Origin: Streptomyces otsuchiensis
GTDB lineage: Bacteria; Actinomycetota; Actinomycetes; Streptomycetales; Streptomycetaceae
Direction: 5' to 3'
Assembly: GCF_004305975.1 (NCBI RefSeq)
Contig: NZ_BHZI01000008.1
Coordinates: 1-45,347, forward strand
Length of the DNA stretch: 45,347 bases
Shown here one piece after another: positions 3,461 through 10,085 of this stretch (position 1 is the stretch's first letter; every line of letters starts with the position of its first letter). A program made the translations under genes and the position numbers. The notes beneath the pieces are model-generated. The model made no database searches, was not told the origin of the DNA, and saw nothing but the letters and a program-made list of their open reading frames with translations.

Positions 3461-3597
3461 ACCCCGAACGCCCGCCCTGGTCGTGTTCCGGCTCCCTCCG
3501 GCGACCGGGGCGGATCACCCCTCTTGCCCGTAAGGGTGTGCGTTCCCGTCTGGCGAGGGGTCTCCCGTTCCGACGCATCTGGAGAGGAGGTAGGCAG
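3461..3597 (+). promoter_or_regulatory. Upstream region of the lasso precursor gene
   Basis: 137 bp gap, the only real break between the small-gene chain and the lasso genes. It contains a weak hairpin (caccc at 3510-3514 with gggtg at 3534-3538) and an unusually strong ribosome binding site, GGAGAGGAGG at 3581-3590, 7 bases before the precursor ATG. A promoter here is likely but its elements were not identified. Confidence 0.4.
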
Positions 3598-3729
3598 ATG
3601 GACGAAGACGTCAAGGAAACGGCTGAGGGATCGGATGTACCGACGGTCATCGACCTGGGCGACGCCGCCGCACTGACGCGTGGTAGTTCGTCGTCGTCTG
3701 TGGAGTCCAAACAGACTCCGTACAGCTAA
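3598..3729 (+). CDS. Lasso peptide precursor (albusnodin-like)
   Basis: 43 residues. The leader (residues 1-28) contains VPTVIDLGDAAALTR, which fits the actinobacterial lasso leader pattern (Pro, hydrophobic pair, Gly, then Thr at the penultimate leader position). The predicted core is GSSSSSVESKQTPYS: Gly1 can form the isopeptide with the side chain of Glu8 (precursor residue 36), giving an 8-residue ring and a 7-residue tail. Lys10 (precursor residue 38) is the only core lysine and is the natural target for the acetyltransferase encoded three genes downstream. Ring size, penultimate Thr and adjacent cyclase and peptidase genes all agree. Because the gene is so short it is easily missed. The exact cleavage site is inferred. 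Confidence 0.9.
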   Translation: MDEDVKETAEGSDVPTVIDLGDAAALTRGSSSSSVESKQTPYS

Positions 3730-3739
3730 CGAGCAAGTA

Positions 3740-3775
3740 GCGGCCCCCTGCGGGAGCAATCCCAACGGGGGCCGC
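3740..3775 (+). terminator. Attenuating hairpin between precursor and cyclase genes
   Basis: GCGGCCCCC at 3740-3748 pairs with GGGGGCCGC at 3767-3775, with a further ggga/tccc pairing possible in the loop. It starts 10 bases after the precursor stop. Partial terminators at this position are common in RiPP clusters and would give more precursor than enzyme mRNA. Confidence 0.55.
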
Positions 3776-3806
3776 CCCGACGTCAAACGGCGGAAGGAGT
3801 GAGGAG

Positions 3807-5510
3807 ATGAAAGACCGTAGAGCGCGGTGGTACGGCGGATGCGCACCCGGCAGCCGGCCCGTCGCAGCACCCGTGGGCGCGCGTCTGCTCTGGCGTGACC
3901 CTGCGCTGTGGGTCTGTGGCGGCTGGCAGCCCGAGCAGGTCCGAACCCTGGCGCTCGGCAGCGCGCGCATCGCCGTACTCGGTCCGTGCTCGGCCACGGA
4001 ACACGACTTGGCCCGTGCCCTGTCCGCCCCCGAGCTTGCGACCGTAGCGCGGACGTGGGCGGGCTCTCACACGGTTGTTCGGCTGACCGAGCGGGGCCGC
4101 GTGGAAGTCCTCGCCGATGTGGGGGCAGCGTCACCCCTCTACACGGTCAGAGCCCCGGACGGAGCGGTGTGGGGGTCCAGCTCGTTGGCACTGTCCTCGC
4201 TCACCGGCGGAAGCGTCGATACAGGCTGGCTCGCCGCGTATCTCCGGGACAAGCACAGCCCCGCTTCGGGCCTGAGTGCATGGGCGGGCGTGACCCCCGT
4301 TCCTGCCGGTCATCTGCTGACGCTCGGCTCCGAGGGCGGAATGACTCTCGCCTCGTGGTGGAAGCCGATGCGACGGACACCCCATGAGGCATCGACGGCG
4401 CTTCGGCATGCGCTCGGCGAAGGTGTCCGCGTACGGGTGTCCGGAGTGCCCGCGAGCACCGACCTGGCCGGTATGGACTCGACCACGGTCACGCTCCTCG
4501 CCGCGCAGTGTGGGCCGATCACCGGCGTCACGGTGCACCCTGCGGGCGTGACTACCGGCGGAGATATGGAGTACGCCCGGGCATTGGACGTCCCCGGTCT
4601 CATCCGTTCGCCGTTCCCTCTCGCTGCCCGACATCTGCCGTTCAGCGCAACCGACGTGCCGTTGCCCGCGACGGACGAACCGGCACCATCGACGGCCGTT
4701 TGGGCGATGTTCGCGGACCAGCTCGGCACCGTGGCTTCCGCGGGCTCCGTCTGCCACCTGACCGGGGACGGCGGGGACAACCTGTTCTCATCCACTCCCG
4801 CACACCTGGTGCGCCTCGCCCGTAGCGGTCACTGGGCCCGGATGTTCGGGGACGCGCGGGACTGGGCTCGGCTCCGTCGCCAAAGCCCCCGCCCGTTGCT
4901 CACCGCCGCACTACGGGGCAACGCGTACCGAATCGGCCGTGCCGATTTCGGGCGGCCGAAATGGCTCGCCGCGCCCGTCCCGAAGGTGAGCGCTCCCACG
5001 GGCCCCGATGCAGACATGGCGTTGGTGGCCGAGTTGCGCACGGTCGCACGGTCGGCGTACGCGGAACTCCAACTAGCGGACGCGCTCGGGCTCGCGCTGC
5101 ACAACCCGTACTTTGACGGGGCGGTCCTGGACGCGGTGGTCTCGGCCCCCGCCGAACAGCGCTACTCGGCTCGGCGGTACAAGCCCATGCTTGCCGACAC
5201 GTTCGCCGACCTGCTGCCCGACGCGCACCGGACACGGGCCGCCAAGGGGCTCATGGTCGGCGACTTCCACCTAGGGCTACGCATGAACCGGCGGCGCGTG
5301 CTCGGTCTCGCGGACGGGCGTCTTGCGGCCCTCGGGCTCGTCAACCCCGCGCCGCTGCGTGCGACCGTTCACGCGGCTGCCCTCGGGGCTGAGACGGTAT
5401 GGCCCCCGCTGCTGTCCGTCCTCGCTGCCGAGGCATGGCTAGAGGCAGTCGAACGCGCTCCCGGCACCGAGTGGACGCGGAACGCGCCGACCCCGGCGGG
5501 TGCACCGTGA
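3807..5510 (+). CDS. Lasso cyclase, asparagine synthetase-like (C protein)
   Basis: 567 residues, usual for lasso cyclases, which adenylate the acidic side chain and close the isopeptide ring. The N-terminal ~150 residues have a glutaminase-like layout but begin MKDRRARWYGGC and lack the Cys2 nucleophile, as expected for a cyclase that needs no ammonia. The ATP pyrophosphatase domain has a degenerate PP-loop, STDLAGMDST (about residues 217-226; SGG(L/M)DS is usual), and an intact GDGGDNLF motif near 320-327. The strong ribosome binding site AAGGAGTGAGGAG supports the ATG at 3807. The stop overlaps the next start by 4 bases. Gln-dependent asparagine synthesis is unlikely given the neighbours and the missing Cys. 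Confidence 0.92.
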   Translation: MKDRRARWYGGCAPGSRPVAAPVGARLLWRDPALWVCGGWQPEQVRTLALGSARIAVLGPCSATEHDLARALSAPELATVARTWAGSHTVVRLTERGRVEVLADVGAASPLYTVRAPDGAVWGSSSLALSSLTGGSVDTGWLAAYLRDKHSPASGLSAWAGVTPVPAGHLLTLGSEGGMTLASWWKPMRRTPHEASTALRHALGEGVRVRVSGVPASTDLAGMDSTTVTLLAAQCGPITGVTVHPAGVTTGGDMEYARALDVPGLIRSPFPLAARHLPFSATDVPLPATDEPAPSTAVWAMFADQLGTVASAGSVCHLTGDGGDNLFSSTPAHLVRLARSGHWARMFGDARDWARLRRQSPRPLLTAALRGNAYRIGRADFGRPKWLAAPVPKVSAPTGPDADMALVAELRTVARSAYAELQLADALGLALHNPYFDGAVLDAVVSAPAEQRYSARRYKPMLADTFADLLPDAHRTRAAKGLMVGDFHLGLRMNRRRVLGLADGRLAALGLVNPAPLRATVHAAALGAETVWPPLLSVLAAEAWLEAVERAPGTEWTRNAPTPAGAP

Positions 5511-6130
5511 GCCGAGCTAACACCGTGGTCTCCCGCGCCTCGCACGCGTCGGTCGTGCTCGACTACGACACGGGGACGGTCCAGTTGCGGCCCACGTCCC
5601 ACGACGTGACCGCCATGGGGGCGAGCGTCGTTGACCTTCCCGACACTGTTCCGACGTGGGGAACCGTCGAACAGTCAGCGGCACCGCCCGAGCACGCCAC
5701 TGTTCCGCTGCGCTGGCGGGTGGTTGCCGTGCCGGCTGTCCTCACCACCGCCGCAGTGCGGGCCGCCGGTCGTCGTCGGAACCGGTTCTCTCGGCTGGTC
5801 CGGCTCGCCTGCTCTGGGCGCGATTTGCCCCCGGCAACAGCCGCTCAGGCTCGCTACGCTGTCCGCGCCGCTCGTTGGGCCGCTCGGTTCCTGCCGATGC
5901 GCTGGGCGTGCCTGGAGGACTCGACGGCTGCCGCACTCGTGCTGACGGCCGTTCGACGCCGCGCCGAGTGGCGGCACGGTGTAGCGCTCGACCCCGTACG
6001 GCTGCACGCGTGGATAGCCGACCCGGAAGGGGAACCGGTCGAGGAACCGGCGGACACCGCGCTGTATACACCCACCTACACACCAGACGGCCCCGGCTCG
6101 GCGCGGGGCACCAGAAAGGTACGACCGTGA
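5507..6130 (+). CDS. Lasso leader peptidase, transglutaminase-like (B2), with an N-terminal extension
   Basis: 207 residues from the GTG that overlaps the cyclase stop. The C-terminal ~120 residues match lasso B2 peptidases: Cys135 in ACLEDS, His167 in LHAWI and Asp172 in DPEG form the expected Cys-His-Asp set that cuts the leader before Gly1. The N-terminal ~100 residues include VVLDYDTGTVQLRPTS, which looks like the strand pair of a PqqD/RRE leader-binding domain, so B1 and B2 may be fused here. No separate RRE gene exists in the cluster. The RRE assignment is tentative; the peptidase call is firm. Confidence 0.85.
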   Translation: MSRANTVVSRASHASVVLDYDTGTVQLRPTSHDVTAMGASVVDLPDTVPTWGTVEQSAAPPEHATVPLRWRVVAVPAVLTTAAVRAAGRRRNRFSRLVRLACSGRDLPPATAAQARYAVRAARWAARFLPMRWACLEDSTAAALVLTAVRRRAEWRHGVALDPVRLHAWIADPEGEPVEEPADTALYTPTYTPDGPGSARGTRKVRP

Positions 6131-6693
6131 GTGAACCGCACATCCTGTTGAGCGGCGAAACGCTCGCTCTCGCAATGCCCCGCGCGGACATGCTGCCCGA
6201 GTACCACAAGTGGGAGAACGACCCCGCAACGATCCTGGGGTACGGAAACCAGTGGGCGCAGGCGTGGGAGGTTCGCGCCGCCGGGTACGAGCGGCAGCGC
6301 GGGAACGACCGCTTCCAGCAGTTCGAGGTGGTCCGGCTGGACGACGGTACGCCCGTAGGAATGACGATTCTGGAAGTCAACACGTACGTGCGCACCGCTG
6401 AGTTCGTGATGGTCCTCGCCCCCGCCGAGCGCGGGAAGGGCCACGCAGCGGAGGCGACTCGCCTAACGCTGGACTGGGCGTTTCACCTTGCCCATCTGCG
6501 GGCGGTCTGGCTCAAGGTGCTGGAGCCCAACAAGGCCGGAATCAGCGCGTACGAGAAGGCGGGGTTCCGGTCGGCTGGTCGGCTCCGCCGCTCGGGGTTC
6601 TGGCTCGGGAAGCCCGTAGACGAACTGATCATGGACGCGGTACCCGAGGACTTCCCCGAACCTTCCGCCGTCGCCGCGACGTTCGGCGACTGA
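6127..6693 (+). CDS. GNAT acetyltransferase of the lasso cluster
   Basis: 188 residues, starting at the GTG that overlaps the peptidase stop by 4 bases. It has the GNAT acetyl-CoA signature: strand VMVLAPAE followed by RGKGHAAEA (R/QxxGxG/A form), and the C-terminal AYEKAGFRSAGRLRRSG typical of RimJ/RimL-like members. In the albusnodin system an acetyltransferase of this kind acetylates a lysine of the lasso peptide. With strict gene coupling and a single core lysine (Lys10), the same role is inferred here. A self-resistance role by acetylating the mature peptide is an alternative. Confidence 0.88.
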   Translation: MSEPHILLSGETLALAMPRADMLPEYHKWENDPATILGYGNQWAQAWEVRAAGYERQRGNDRFQQFEVVRLDDGTPVGMTILEVNTYVRTAEFVMVLAPAERGKGHAAEATRLTLDWAFHLAHLRAVWLKVLEPNKAGISAYEKAGFRSAGRLRRSGFWLGKPVDELIMDAVPEDFPEPSAVAATFGD

Positions 6694-6722
6694 CACAGTC
6701 GTCACGTAGGAGCTTGCTCGTT

Positions 6723-7558: not shown

Positions 7559-8389
7559 TCAGTCGGTGGCCGGTTGCGGGGGCCAGGGGCCCCAGGCGTC
7601 CATGAAGGAGCCGCCGAGGAGTGGGGTGCCTGGGCGGGCCCAGCCGGGGTCGTCGGGGGTGATCACCGCGTCCGCGTACTGCTCGGCGTCGTCCTGCGGG
7701 TGGTAGCCGATCTGCCGACCCCGGGTGAGGTCGAGGACGGCGCGGGTGTTGGCGGAGACGCCGTTGACGACGGTGTGTCCGACCTCGGTGGCGGTGAGGG
7801 AGGCGTGGACCAGGCGGGCACAGTCGTCCGGGCTCAGCCAGATCGACAGCTCGCGGGCGTTGCGGGGCCGTGCGTAGCAGGCGCCGATCCGCAGCGAGAC
7901 GGTCTCGATGCCGCAGCGGTCCCAGTAGAGCTGCGCCAGGTCCTCACCGGCGCACTTGGTGAGGCCGTAGAAGGTGTCGGGCCGGTGCGGTACGTCGGTG
8001 CCGATCGGCGGCTGTCCGGGGCCGGGGCAGCGGGTGAAGCCCACGGCGTGGTTGCTGGAGGCGAGGACGACCCGTGGTACGGCCTCCTGCCGGACCGCCT
8101 CGTAGAGGTGGTAGCCGCCGAGGATGTTGTTGCGCACCATTTCCGGGAAGTCGCGCTCCCCGGGGTGCGCCGCCAGGTGCACGACCGCGTCCGTCCCGCG
8201 CACCGCCTCGCGCAGGGCGGACTCGTCGTCCAGCGGCGCGGTGACCGCGTCCGGTTCGCCGGGGACCGGGAGCCGGTCCAGCAGTCTCAGTCGCCAGCCC
8301 AGGGCCGGGAGGCGTTCGCGCAGCATCGTTCCGATCCGGCCGGTGGCACCGGTCAGCAGAACGGTGGGGGAGGTGTCGGGCCCGGTCAT
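7559..8389 (-). CDS. NAD-dependent epimerase/dehydratase, uronate dehydrogenase-like
   Basis: 276 residues. An N-terminal Rossmann motif TGATGRIG (about residues 14-21) is followed by VVHLAAHPGE, SSNHAVGFT and the catalytic Y-x-x-x-K as YGLTK. The combination SSNH...YGxxK and the short length fit the uronate dehydrogenase branch of the extended SDR family, which oxidises uronic acids to lactones with NAD. The start is the ATG after GAGGAGCGAG; the frame continues further upstream without support. It is divergent from the NCS2 permease gene. Substrate assignment is by family resemblance only. Confidence 0.8.
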   Translation of the reverse strand: MTGPDTSPTVLLTGATGRIGTMLRERLPALGWRLRLLDRLPVPGEPDAVTAPLDDESALREAVRGTDAVVHLAAHPGERDFPEMVRNNILGGYHLYEAVRQEAVPRVVLASSNHAVGFTRCPGPGQPPIGTDVPHRPDTFYGLTKCAGEDLAQLYWDRCGIETVSLRIGACYARPRNARELSIWLSPDDCARLVHASLTATEVGHTVVNGVSANTRAVLDLTRGRQIGYHPQDDAEQYADAVITPDDPGWARPGTPLLGGSFMDAWGPWPPQPATD

Positions 8390-8645
8390 CTCGCTCCTCG
8401 GCTGCGGGGTGGGCCCGCCGCCCGCCGCGCCCGGTCGTGCCGGAGGCCGGAGGAGGCCCGCCGGGAGTGATGCCCGCCACCGCGCGGGGCGCAAACAGCG
8501 GCGCGCCGGTAACGTCCTGGTTTCCGCGGCGGCCCCCGGCTGGGCGTACCCGCGCCGGTCAGGCAGAATGCGCCACGTTGAGTCACGTACCGCCTTGTTC
8601 AAGCCGTCCCGGCCGTCGGTCCGGGCACTCTCCGTGAGGATGTCC

Positions 8646-10085
8646 ATGAGCACCACCGAAGTCGACGCCGGCGGCGGCAAGTCCGCCTCCGGTGCCAGCC
8701 GTCTCGACGCGTTCTTCCAGATATCGGAACGCGGCTCCACCGTCGGGCGGGAGATTCGCGGTGGCCTGGTCACCTTCTTCACCATGGCGTACATCCTGGT
8801 GCTGAACCCGGTGATCCTCGGTGGGACCACCGACGTCAACGGCGATCAGCTGGAGGTGGCGCAGCTGGTCACCGTCACCGCGCTGGTGGCGGCGGTGATG
8901 ACGCTGCTGATGGGTGTCACCGCCAACCTGCCGATCGCGTTGGCGGCCGGGCTCGGCCTCAACGCCATGGTGGCCTACGGTCTGGCGCCGATCATGACGT
9001 GGCCGGAGGCGATGGGCCTGGTGGTGCTGGAGGGGCTGCTGATCTGCGCGCTGGCCGTCACCGGCCTGCGGGAGAAGGTCATGCAGGCCATCCCGATGCC
9101 GGTGAAGCAGGCCATCGGGGTCGGTATCGGGCTGTTCATCGCCTTCATCGGCGTGATCAACGCCGGCTTCGCCGGTCCCGGCGACGGCACCCCGGTGACC
9201 CTGGGGGACGGCGGCGCACTGCGCGGCTGGCCGGTGCTGGTGTTCTGCCTCGGTGTGCTGCTGACCTTCACGCTGCTGGCGCGGAAGGTGAAGGGCGCCA
9301 TCCTGATCAGCATCGTCGCGATGACGGTGCTCGCGGTGATCATCAACACCGTCGCGGACGACGTGCAGTGGGGGCTGACCACGCCGGAGCTGCCGGGCGG
9401 GATCTCCGACATCGTCGCGGCGCCGGACTTCGGTCTCGTAGGGGCGTTCAGCCTGTTCGGAGCCTTCGGGCAGATCAGCGTGATCACCGTGGTGCTGCTG
9501 ATCTTCACCCTTTTCCTCACCGACTTCTTCGACACCATGGGCACGGCCGTCGCGGTGACCAACGAGGCCGGTCTGCTGGAGGACGGCCGTCCGCCGCGGC
9601 TGGGCCGGCTGCTCTTCGTGGACGGTCTGGCCACGGTCGGCGGTGGCGCGTGCTCCGCCTCCTCGAACACCGCCTACATCGAGTCCGCGTCCGGTGTCGG
9701 CGAGGGGGCACGTACCGGCCTGGCCAACATCGTGACCGGTGGACTCTTCGCGCTGGCGCTGTTCTTCGCCCCGCTGGCGTCGGCGGTGCCCGCGCAGGCG
9801 GCGTCCCCGGCGCTGGTCGTGGTCGGCTTCCTGATGATGACGCAGGTCGCGGGCATCGACTGGAAGTCCTACGACCTGGCGATCCCGGCCTTCGTGATCA
9901 TCGCGGTGATGCCGTTCACGTACTCCATCACCAACGGCATCGGTGCGGGCTTCATCGCCTATGTCGTGGTCAAGGCGGCGATGGGCCGTACCCGCGAGGT
10001 GCACTGGCTGATGTGGGTGACCGCGGCGATGTTCCTGGTGTACTTCGCCATCGACCCGATCGAGCAGGTCCTCGGCATCCGCTGA
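8646..10085 (+). CDS. NCS2-family purine permease (AzgA/PbuG-like)
   Basis: 479 residues with 12-14 hydrophobic segments. Family marks are GGLVTFFTMAYILVLNPVIL near the N terminus, LPIALAAGLGLNAMVAYG, the conserved TDFFDTMGT motif and the SASSNTAYIESASGVGEGAR motif, all typical of the AzgA-like branch that imports adenine, guanine or hypoxanthine with protons. The ATG at 8646 was preferred over that at 8640 because GAGGA lies 5 bases upstream of the former. The 256-bp gap before it (from 8390) is shared with the divergent dehydrogenase. A strong terminator follows. Confidence 0.93.
   Translation: MSTTEVDAGGGKSASGASRLDAFFQISERGSTVGREIRGGLVTFFTMAYILVLNPVILGGTTDVNGDQLEVAQLVTVTALVAAVMTLLMGVTANLPIALAAGLGLNAMVAYGLAPIMTWPEAMGLVVLEGLLICALAVTGLREKVMQAIPMPVKQAIGVGIGLFIAFIGVINAGFAGPGDGTPVTLGDGGALRGWPVLVFCLGVLLTFTLLARKVKGAILISIVAMTVLAVIINTVADDVQWGLTTPELPGGISDIVAAPDFGLVGAFSLFGAFGQISVITVVLLIFTLFLTDFFDTMGTAVAVTNEAGLLEDGRPPRLGRLLFVDGLATVGGGACSASSNTAYIESASGVGEGARTGLANIVTGGLFALALFFAPLASAVPAQAASPALVVVGFLMMTQVAGIDWKSYDLAIPAFVIIAVMPFTYSITNGIGAGFIAYVVVKAAMGRTREVHWLMWVTAAMFLVYFAIDPIEQVLGIR

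Follow-up and report, generated by a model that had tools for sequence, protein, structure and literature searches.

A candidate acetylated lasso peptide cassette in Streptomyces otsuchiensis and the fate of its acetyltransferase gene in related genomes

Four tightly packed genes of Streptomyces otsuchiensis raise two linked questions: which peptide they make, and what purpose is served by the acetyltransferase encoded at their end. The genes lie in a stretch of 45,347 nt (assembly GCF_004305975.1, contig NZ_BHZI01000008.1, forward strand), the whole of which is referred to here as the window, and occupy positions 3598-6693 on the + strand in the order A-C-B-T. Sequence comparison gives good reason to expect that this compact cassette makes a lasso peptide of the albusnodin family, acetylated at Lys10 of its core. 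Its membership as a further representative of that family is supported, while the cluster type itself is already known. Its features are as follows.

3581..3590, + strand: probable ribosome-binding site of the precursor gene (ggagaggagg), as read from the sequence
3598..3729, + strand: A, lasso precursor of 43 aa, with leader, core and stop (NF033525)
3682..3726, + strand: predicted core peptide GSSSSSVESKQTPYS, with the Lys10 codon at 3709-3711 and the motif E-x-K-[QR]-x-x-Y
3740..3775, + strand: RNA hairpin between A and C found by folding, a possible transcript stabiliser or partial attenuator
3807..5510, + strand: C, lasso macrolactam cyclase, asparagine-synthetase-like, 567 aa (NF033561, PF00733)
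5507..6130, + strand: B, leader peptidase (B2, transglutaminase-like), 207 aa (NF033537)
6127..6693, + strand: T, GNAT-family N-acetyltransferase, 188 aa (PF13302, PF00583)

The cassette and its predicted product

The original prediction described four closely ordered genes with a 43-residue precursor and GTGA overlaps among the last three. All frames lie where it placed them, and both overlaps are present (C/B at 5507-5510, B/T at 6127-6130). Precursor A scores 41.6 bits against the albusnodin family profile NF033525 of NCBIfam (cut-off 30) and is the single match in the source genome at E <= 1 (E 3.7e-9, above the cut-off). A search of 14 control genomes with this profile gave 3 weak matches, none of them above the cut-off or at E <= 1e-5. 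C reaches 611.4 bits against the albusnodin/ikarugamycin cyclase profile NF033561 (cut-off 300) and also matches PF00733; a comparison of C with solved structures returned zero matches at E <= 0.001. T matches the GNAT profiles PF13302 (53.5 bits) and PF00583 (45.5 bits), with a further weak, below-cut-off match to one unrelated family, and its residues 7-183 match the solved GNAT 9iy3 (E 1.9e-48). With A and C above curated cut-offs, the ACBT order, a GNAT as T and a core lysine in register at position 10, the proposed albusnodin-like identity is supported.

The precursor divides into a 28-residue leader, MDEDVKETAEGSDVPTVIDLGDAAALTR, which ends in GDAAALTR, and the 15-residue core, which has both an acid at position 8 (Glu8) and Lys10. 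By analogy with the family, the cleavage site, the Gly1-Glu8 ring and the acetylation of Lys10 are predicted. In the proposed pathway, B would hold the leader, perhaps via a short N-terminal domain, and cut after Thr27-Arg28; C would close the ring around the threaded tail by bonding the Gly1 amine of the core to the Glu8 side chain; and T would acetylate the side chain of Lys10. The computed monoisotopic mass of the predicted 15-residue product is 1553.68 in the acetylated and 1511.67 in the unacetylated form.

A scan of genome contigs for relatives returned 16 loci. The nearest are L041 (Streptomyces sp. AC1-42W), L043 (A1277) and L038 (NRRL B-1347), which share the layout of the window cluster and have cyclases of 82-84% and T proteins of 86-91% identity to its own. 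Their cores differ from that of the window by one residue in L041 (GSSSTSVESKQTPYS), two in L043 (GSSSTSVEGKQTPYS) and six in L038 (GGENSGVEAKQTPYD). Loss of the precursor frame in related genomes had been named beforehand as grounds for rejecting the prediction, and the frame is conserved there. In a DNA comparison with 11 loci, one continuous match links the window to each of the eight nearest, beginning at 3471-3644 and ending at 6677-6717; L037 and L043 additionally match a stretch of 49-60 bases near 3462-3520. The ratio of nonsynonymous to synonymous substitution rates (dN/dS), estimated against the same six relatives for each gene, is 0.17-0.22 for C and 0.16-0.28 for B. T is the most constrained gene, and its low ratio (0.105-0.157) argues that it is not a passenger.

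The leader peptidase agrees with its original description in part. B scores 73.9 bits over residues 69-192 against the lasso B2 profile NF033537 (cut-off 33), and of the claimed Cys-His-Asp residues, Cys135 and His167 are invariant in 16 of 16 B proteins, but no Asp is: Glu180 is kept in all 16 and Asp183 in 15. The N-terminal stretch likewise keeps Tyr20, Thr22, Gly23 and Leu27 in 16/16. B1/PqqD profiles of NCBIfam and Pfam gave zero matches in the 16 B proteins of the window group, and a leader-binding B1 sought among solved structures produced chance-level matches only. In the alignment, the N-terminal stretch of L115, L120 and L006 is longer by about 30 to 45 residues ahead of an S-W-G motif. 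In the more distant member L115, the first part of this stretch scores weakly against PqqD (16 bits, below the cut-off of 23.4), and the window B aligns with that first part only. The second half is absent in the window group and, separately, in L008 and L009. Residues 1-68 of B (window 5507-5710) look like a leader-binding (RRE) domain shortened to its first strands. Elsewhere in the source genome, the sole PqqD match at E <= 0.1 (G000 C104:18268-18474, L190) lies on another contig, inside a 565-residue open frame.

Between A and C, the region 3727-3806 folds with a minimum free energy of -36.1 (z -2.69), equalled by 3 of 200 shuffles. Folding of 15 A-C gaps gave a strong hairpin in 12, with energies of -34.9 to -45.3 kcal/mol; the remaining three are all from Nocardiopsis, with gaps of 28-34 bases. 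The stem letters are nearly invariant, so that little covariation can be counted. Precedent from other peptide operons suggests that this hairpin may raise precursor over enzyme levels.

The core motif and the acetyltransferase gene

The 47 loci with A, C and T, a number that counts repeat fetches and near-copies, yielded 34 distinct cores, and in 34 of 34 the motif E-x-K-[QR]-x-x-Y lies downstream of the first Gly. Thirty-two cores have their ring acid at residue 8 and one (L115) at residue 9; for L109 the automatic call was 7, with 8 equally readable from a TTGG start. Six clusters with a similar cyclase and no T (L101, L127, L128, L130-L132) have no acid-x-Lys after the ring and lack the motif, the absence of T being judged within stretches of 7.5-10 kb; L129 gave no core. 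The cyclases of five of these six lie above the NF033561 cut-off, and that of L101 lies below it. Motif-bearing loci without T (among them L011, L051, L055, L073, L102 and L136; 1.9-5.7 kb) end before T at a flank or contig end and were excluded from the T-less count. In the loci compared, the acid-x-Lys pair and T occur together.

Several observations weigh against a simple reading of this association, or of the cassette as a source of Lys10-acetylated peptide. Tyr14 is conserved equally to Lys10, so the motif alone cannot identify the acylated residue, and the motif count depends on a search profile whose seed precursors mostly carried the motif already. Seven loci with C and T yielded no precursor (L020, L021, L040, L050, L103, L117, L137; several at contig ends). 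Among the T-less loci L022-L034, read for about 1.5 kb on each side, the cores of L026, L029 and L032 have Lys at number 10, right after Asp. Finally, no transporter was found among the ten flanking open reading frames scanned.

Two individual loci are of separate interest. L101 carries at 2342-2452 a precursor with the core GSGHQHSESYGYYD, in which Tyr replaces Lys10, with no T within the 7.5 kb read; its genome (G219) carries a lone T on another contig. A cluster of Nocardiopsis kunsanensis (L046, also L104) holds two tandem T genes at 8291-8854 and 8871-9452, the second of which groups nearest the T of L115 on the T tree, and its core carries one lysine only.

Lone acetyltransferase genes and the role of acetylation

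That acetylation protects the producer is a less certain proposition than the cleavage site, the ring or the acetylation itself. According to the available portions of PMC9266682 and PMC8498205, no unacetylated intermediate of albusnodin was seen without albT, and the latter states that the albusnodin authors proposed a role of acetylation in resistance or folding. For triculamin and lariocidin, the accessible text of PMC13352647 describes acetylation as self-resistance. In keeping with these precedents, T could be primarily a gene for self-resistance (immunity) that disarms an otherwise harmful unacetylated lasso, and it may persist alone as a resistance gene. This account is a serious contender, rated somewhat short of even, and the distribution of T genes bears on it directly.

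A search of 392 Streptomyces genomes at E <= 1e-40 gave 29 T matches in 27 genomes. Fifteen sit in a full cluster, two of these being split over contigs (G150, G293), and two more (G044, G225) stand next to C and B but are divided between reading frames. Eleven have at most remnants of C or B, and four of these carry such B and/or C remnants directly upstream (G231, G121, G297, G025), the G121 remnant consisting of 24 residues that appeared in one of two scans. A twelfth defective case, G116 (L100), retains T with A and B next to a cyclase missing about 190 middle residues. L179 does not count as a lone T, as B adjoins its T and A and C lie on another contig.

A similar picture comes from genus g37, in which L109-L113, L117 and L126 represent a single orthologous chromosomal site, examined in 12 genomes. 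G447 (L109) has A, C and T, with a stop parting the N-terminal from the peptidase part of B; G497 retains a shrunken C and T, G569 a B fragment and T, and G607 a broken T, while G517, G535 and G553 retain T alone. In five genomes, then, T is still intact although most or all of the other cluster genes are gone. In 5 of the 12 the site is empty, nearly clean in G430 (24 bases separating the flanks) and G507 (44 bases) and with 0.8-1.1 kb of other DNA in three. NF033525, a model that may or may not recognise the G447 type, gave no match at E <= 0.01 in G497, G553, G569 and G607.

T often outlives the remaining cluster genes. On a T tree of 61 rows, 17 of them labelled lone and L100 (G116) labelled cluster, the label changes 7 times, with at least 6 changes forced by starred branches; the tree omits exact copies and T proteins under 170 residues (L119, L021, L137, L013, L135, L126 and the second partial T of L045). 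Pairs with a lone T have dN/dS of 0.06-0.42, except L117-L110 at 0.54, and 9 of the 17 lone rows retain 23 of 23 cluster-invariant residues. This pattern is what a resistance gene would be expected to leave behind, and deletions from the A side would leave it too: T is the last gene of the operon, and its position by itself would protect it from them. In g37 the three T-alone copies have common breakpoints, the left of which recurs at the broken T of G607, and they count as a single event; G517 and G535 carry a full cluster elsewhere in the genome. Pairwise dN/dS mostly reflects the time before loss, the tree gives no direction for individual changes, and a lone GNAT may have another substrate. 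An absolute asymmetry of decay was also rejected: in L134, L135 and L137 it is T that is split between frames, and C and B remain mostly readable.

A wider version of this account is offered more tentatively still, with the balance against it. In the albusnodin family, T would be selected in its own right as an immunity gene that disarms the lasso, which does harm as long as Lys10 lacks its acetyl group; the absence of product without albT would then reflect self-poisoning and not failed folding, and a lone T would shield non-producers from the lassos of their neighbours. The retention pattern supports a resistance role of T without proving it; the idea itself is not new, and the comparative evidence is what is added. 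Titles and abstract openings returned by a literature search include none on lone albusnodin-type acetyltransferases, which is not proof of absence. The lone and outliving T genes make the choice between a folding and a self-protection role of lysine acetylation decidable by gene removal or a sensitivity assay.

Other remains illustrate the variety of decay. Two or three cluster-invariant residues are gone from one lone-T clade (L114, L172-L176), among them Gln42 (6/6) and Tyr142 (5/6), each of which is conserved across the 42 cluster T rows in the comparison; this clade may have another function. L099 retains a classical core, GQGGGQSEDKRRAYNS, at 5460-5573 on the - strand, with C and B gone and T a fragment. 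In L042, L047 and L048 the cyclase is split across reading frames in otherwise full clusters, through decay or sequencing error.

The predicted acetylation of Lys10 by T has a second rival. Since Tyr14 also co-occurs with T, the enzyme might acylate this conserved tyrosine, which stands at +6 from the ring Glu in 34/34 cores. However, albusnodin is acetylated on Lys10, as given in the available text of reviews, and the window precursor and cyclase fall in the same curated families, so tyrosine acylation is very unlikely. It is also very unlikely that the cluster has fallen silent or decayed into a relic: decay is common in albusnodin-type clusters, but here all four frames are intact, the overlaps are kept, and dN/dS stays below 0.29 for C, B and T alike.

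Flanking DNA and comparison with known systems

Upstream of the cassette, a small DUF7848 protein is encoded directly ahead of it at 2585-2803 on the + strand, and a DUF397 gene adjoins an HTH/DUF5753 regulator at 896-1938 on the - strand. Such DUF397 and HTH/DUF5753 pairs are common in Streptomyces. Three of the 11 loci compared as DNA (L036, L038, L043) match the DUF397/regulator DNA at 905-2024 with 66-69% identity, and in these loci the matching DNA precedes the precursor by about 0.8-2 kb; regulator and cluster may be linked. Further out, at 360-522, three CRISPR-like repeats, CTCCTCCCCGCGCACGCGGGGGTGTTCCC, are spaced by 61-62 bases, an arrangement that resembles a small type I-E array.

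Among known systems, the window cassette stands closest to the albusnodin type. The classical-type core of L008-L010 and L100, GQGGGQSEDKRRAYNC, is presumably the albusnodin core itself; compared with it, the window core has Pro13 for Ala13 and no Cys. The window cyclase is about 35% identical to those of L008 and L009. The GNAT of PDB 9iy3/9iy4/9ubc is related to T, but is closer by eye to the lone T of L119. Albusnodin of Streptomyces albus DSM 41398 (albACBT) has, in the available portions of PMC9266682 and PMC8498205, the ACBT order and an acetyl group on Lys10, and 43 similar clusters were found there using AlbT. The window cassette shares this order, a GNAT and Lys10, and its A and C fall in families named after albusnodin. 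It would add a serine-ringed core to a family with one described product, albusnodin, as far as the accessible text of these sources extends. Triculamin and lariocidin offer a more distant likeness, each being a lasso peptide with a lysine acetyltransferase (PMC13352647, accessible text), but with a core different from that of the window; the triculamin core is SKKSKPGDGIRGKGVRG, with its ring at Asp8, in the available part of PMC13192320.

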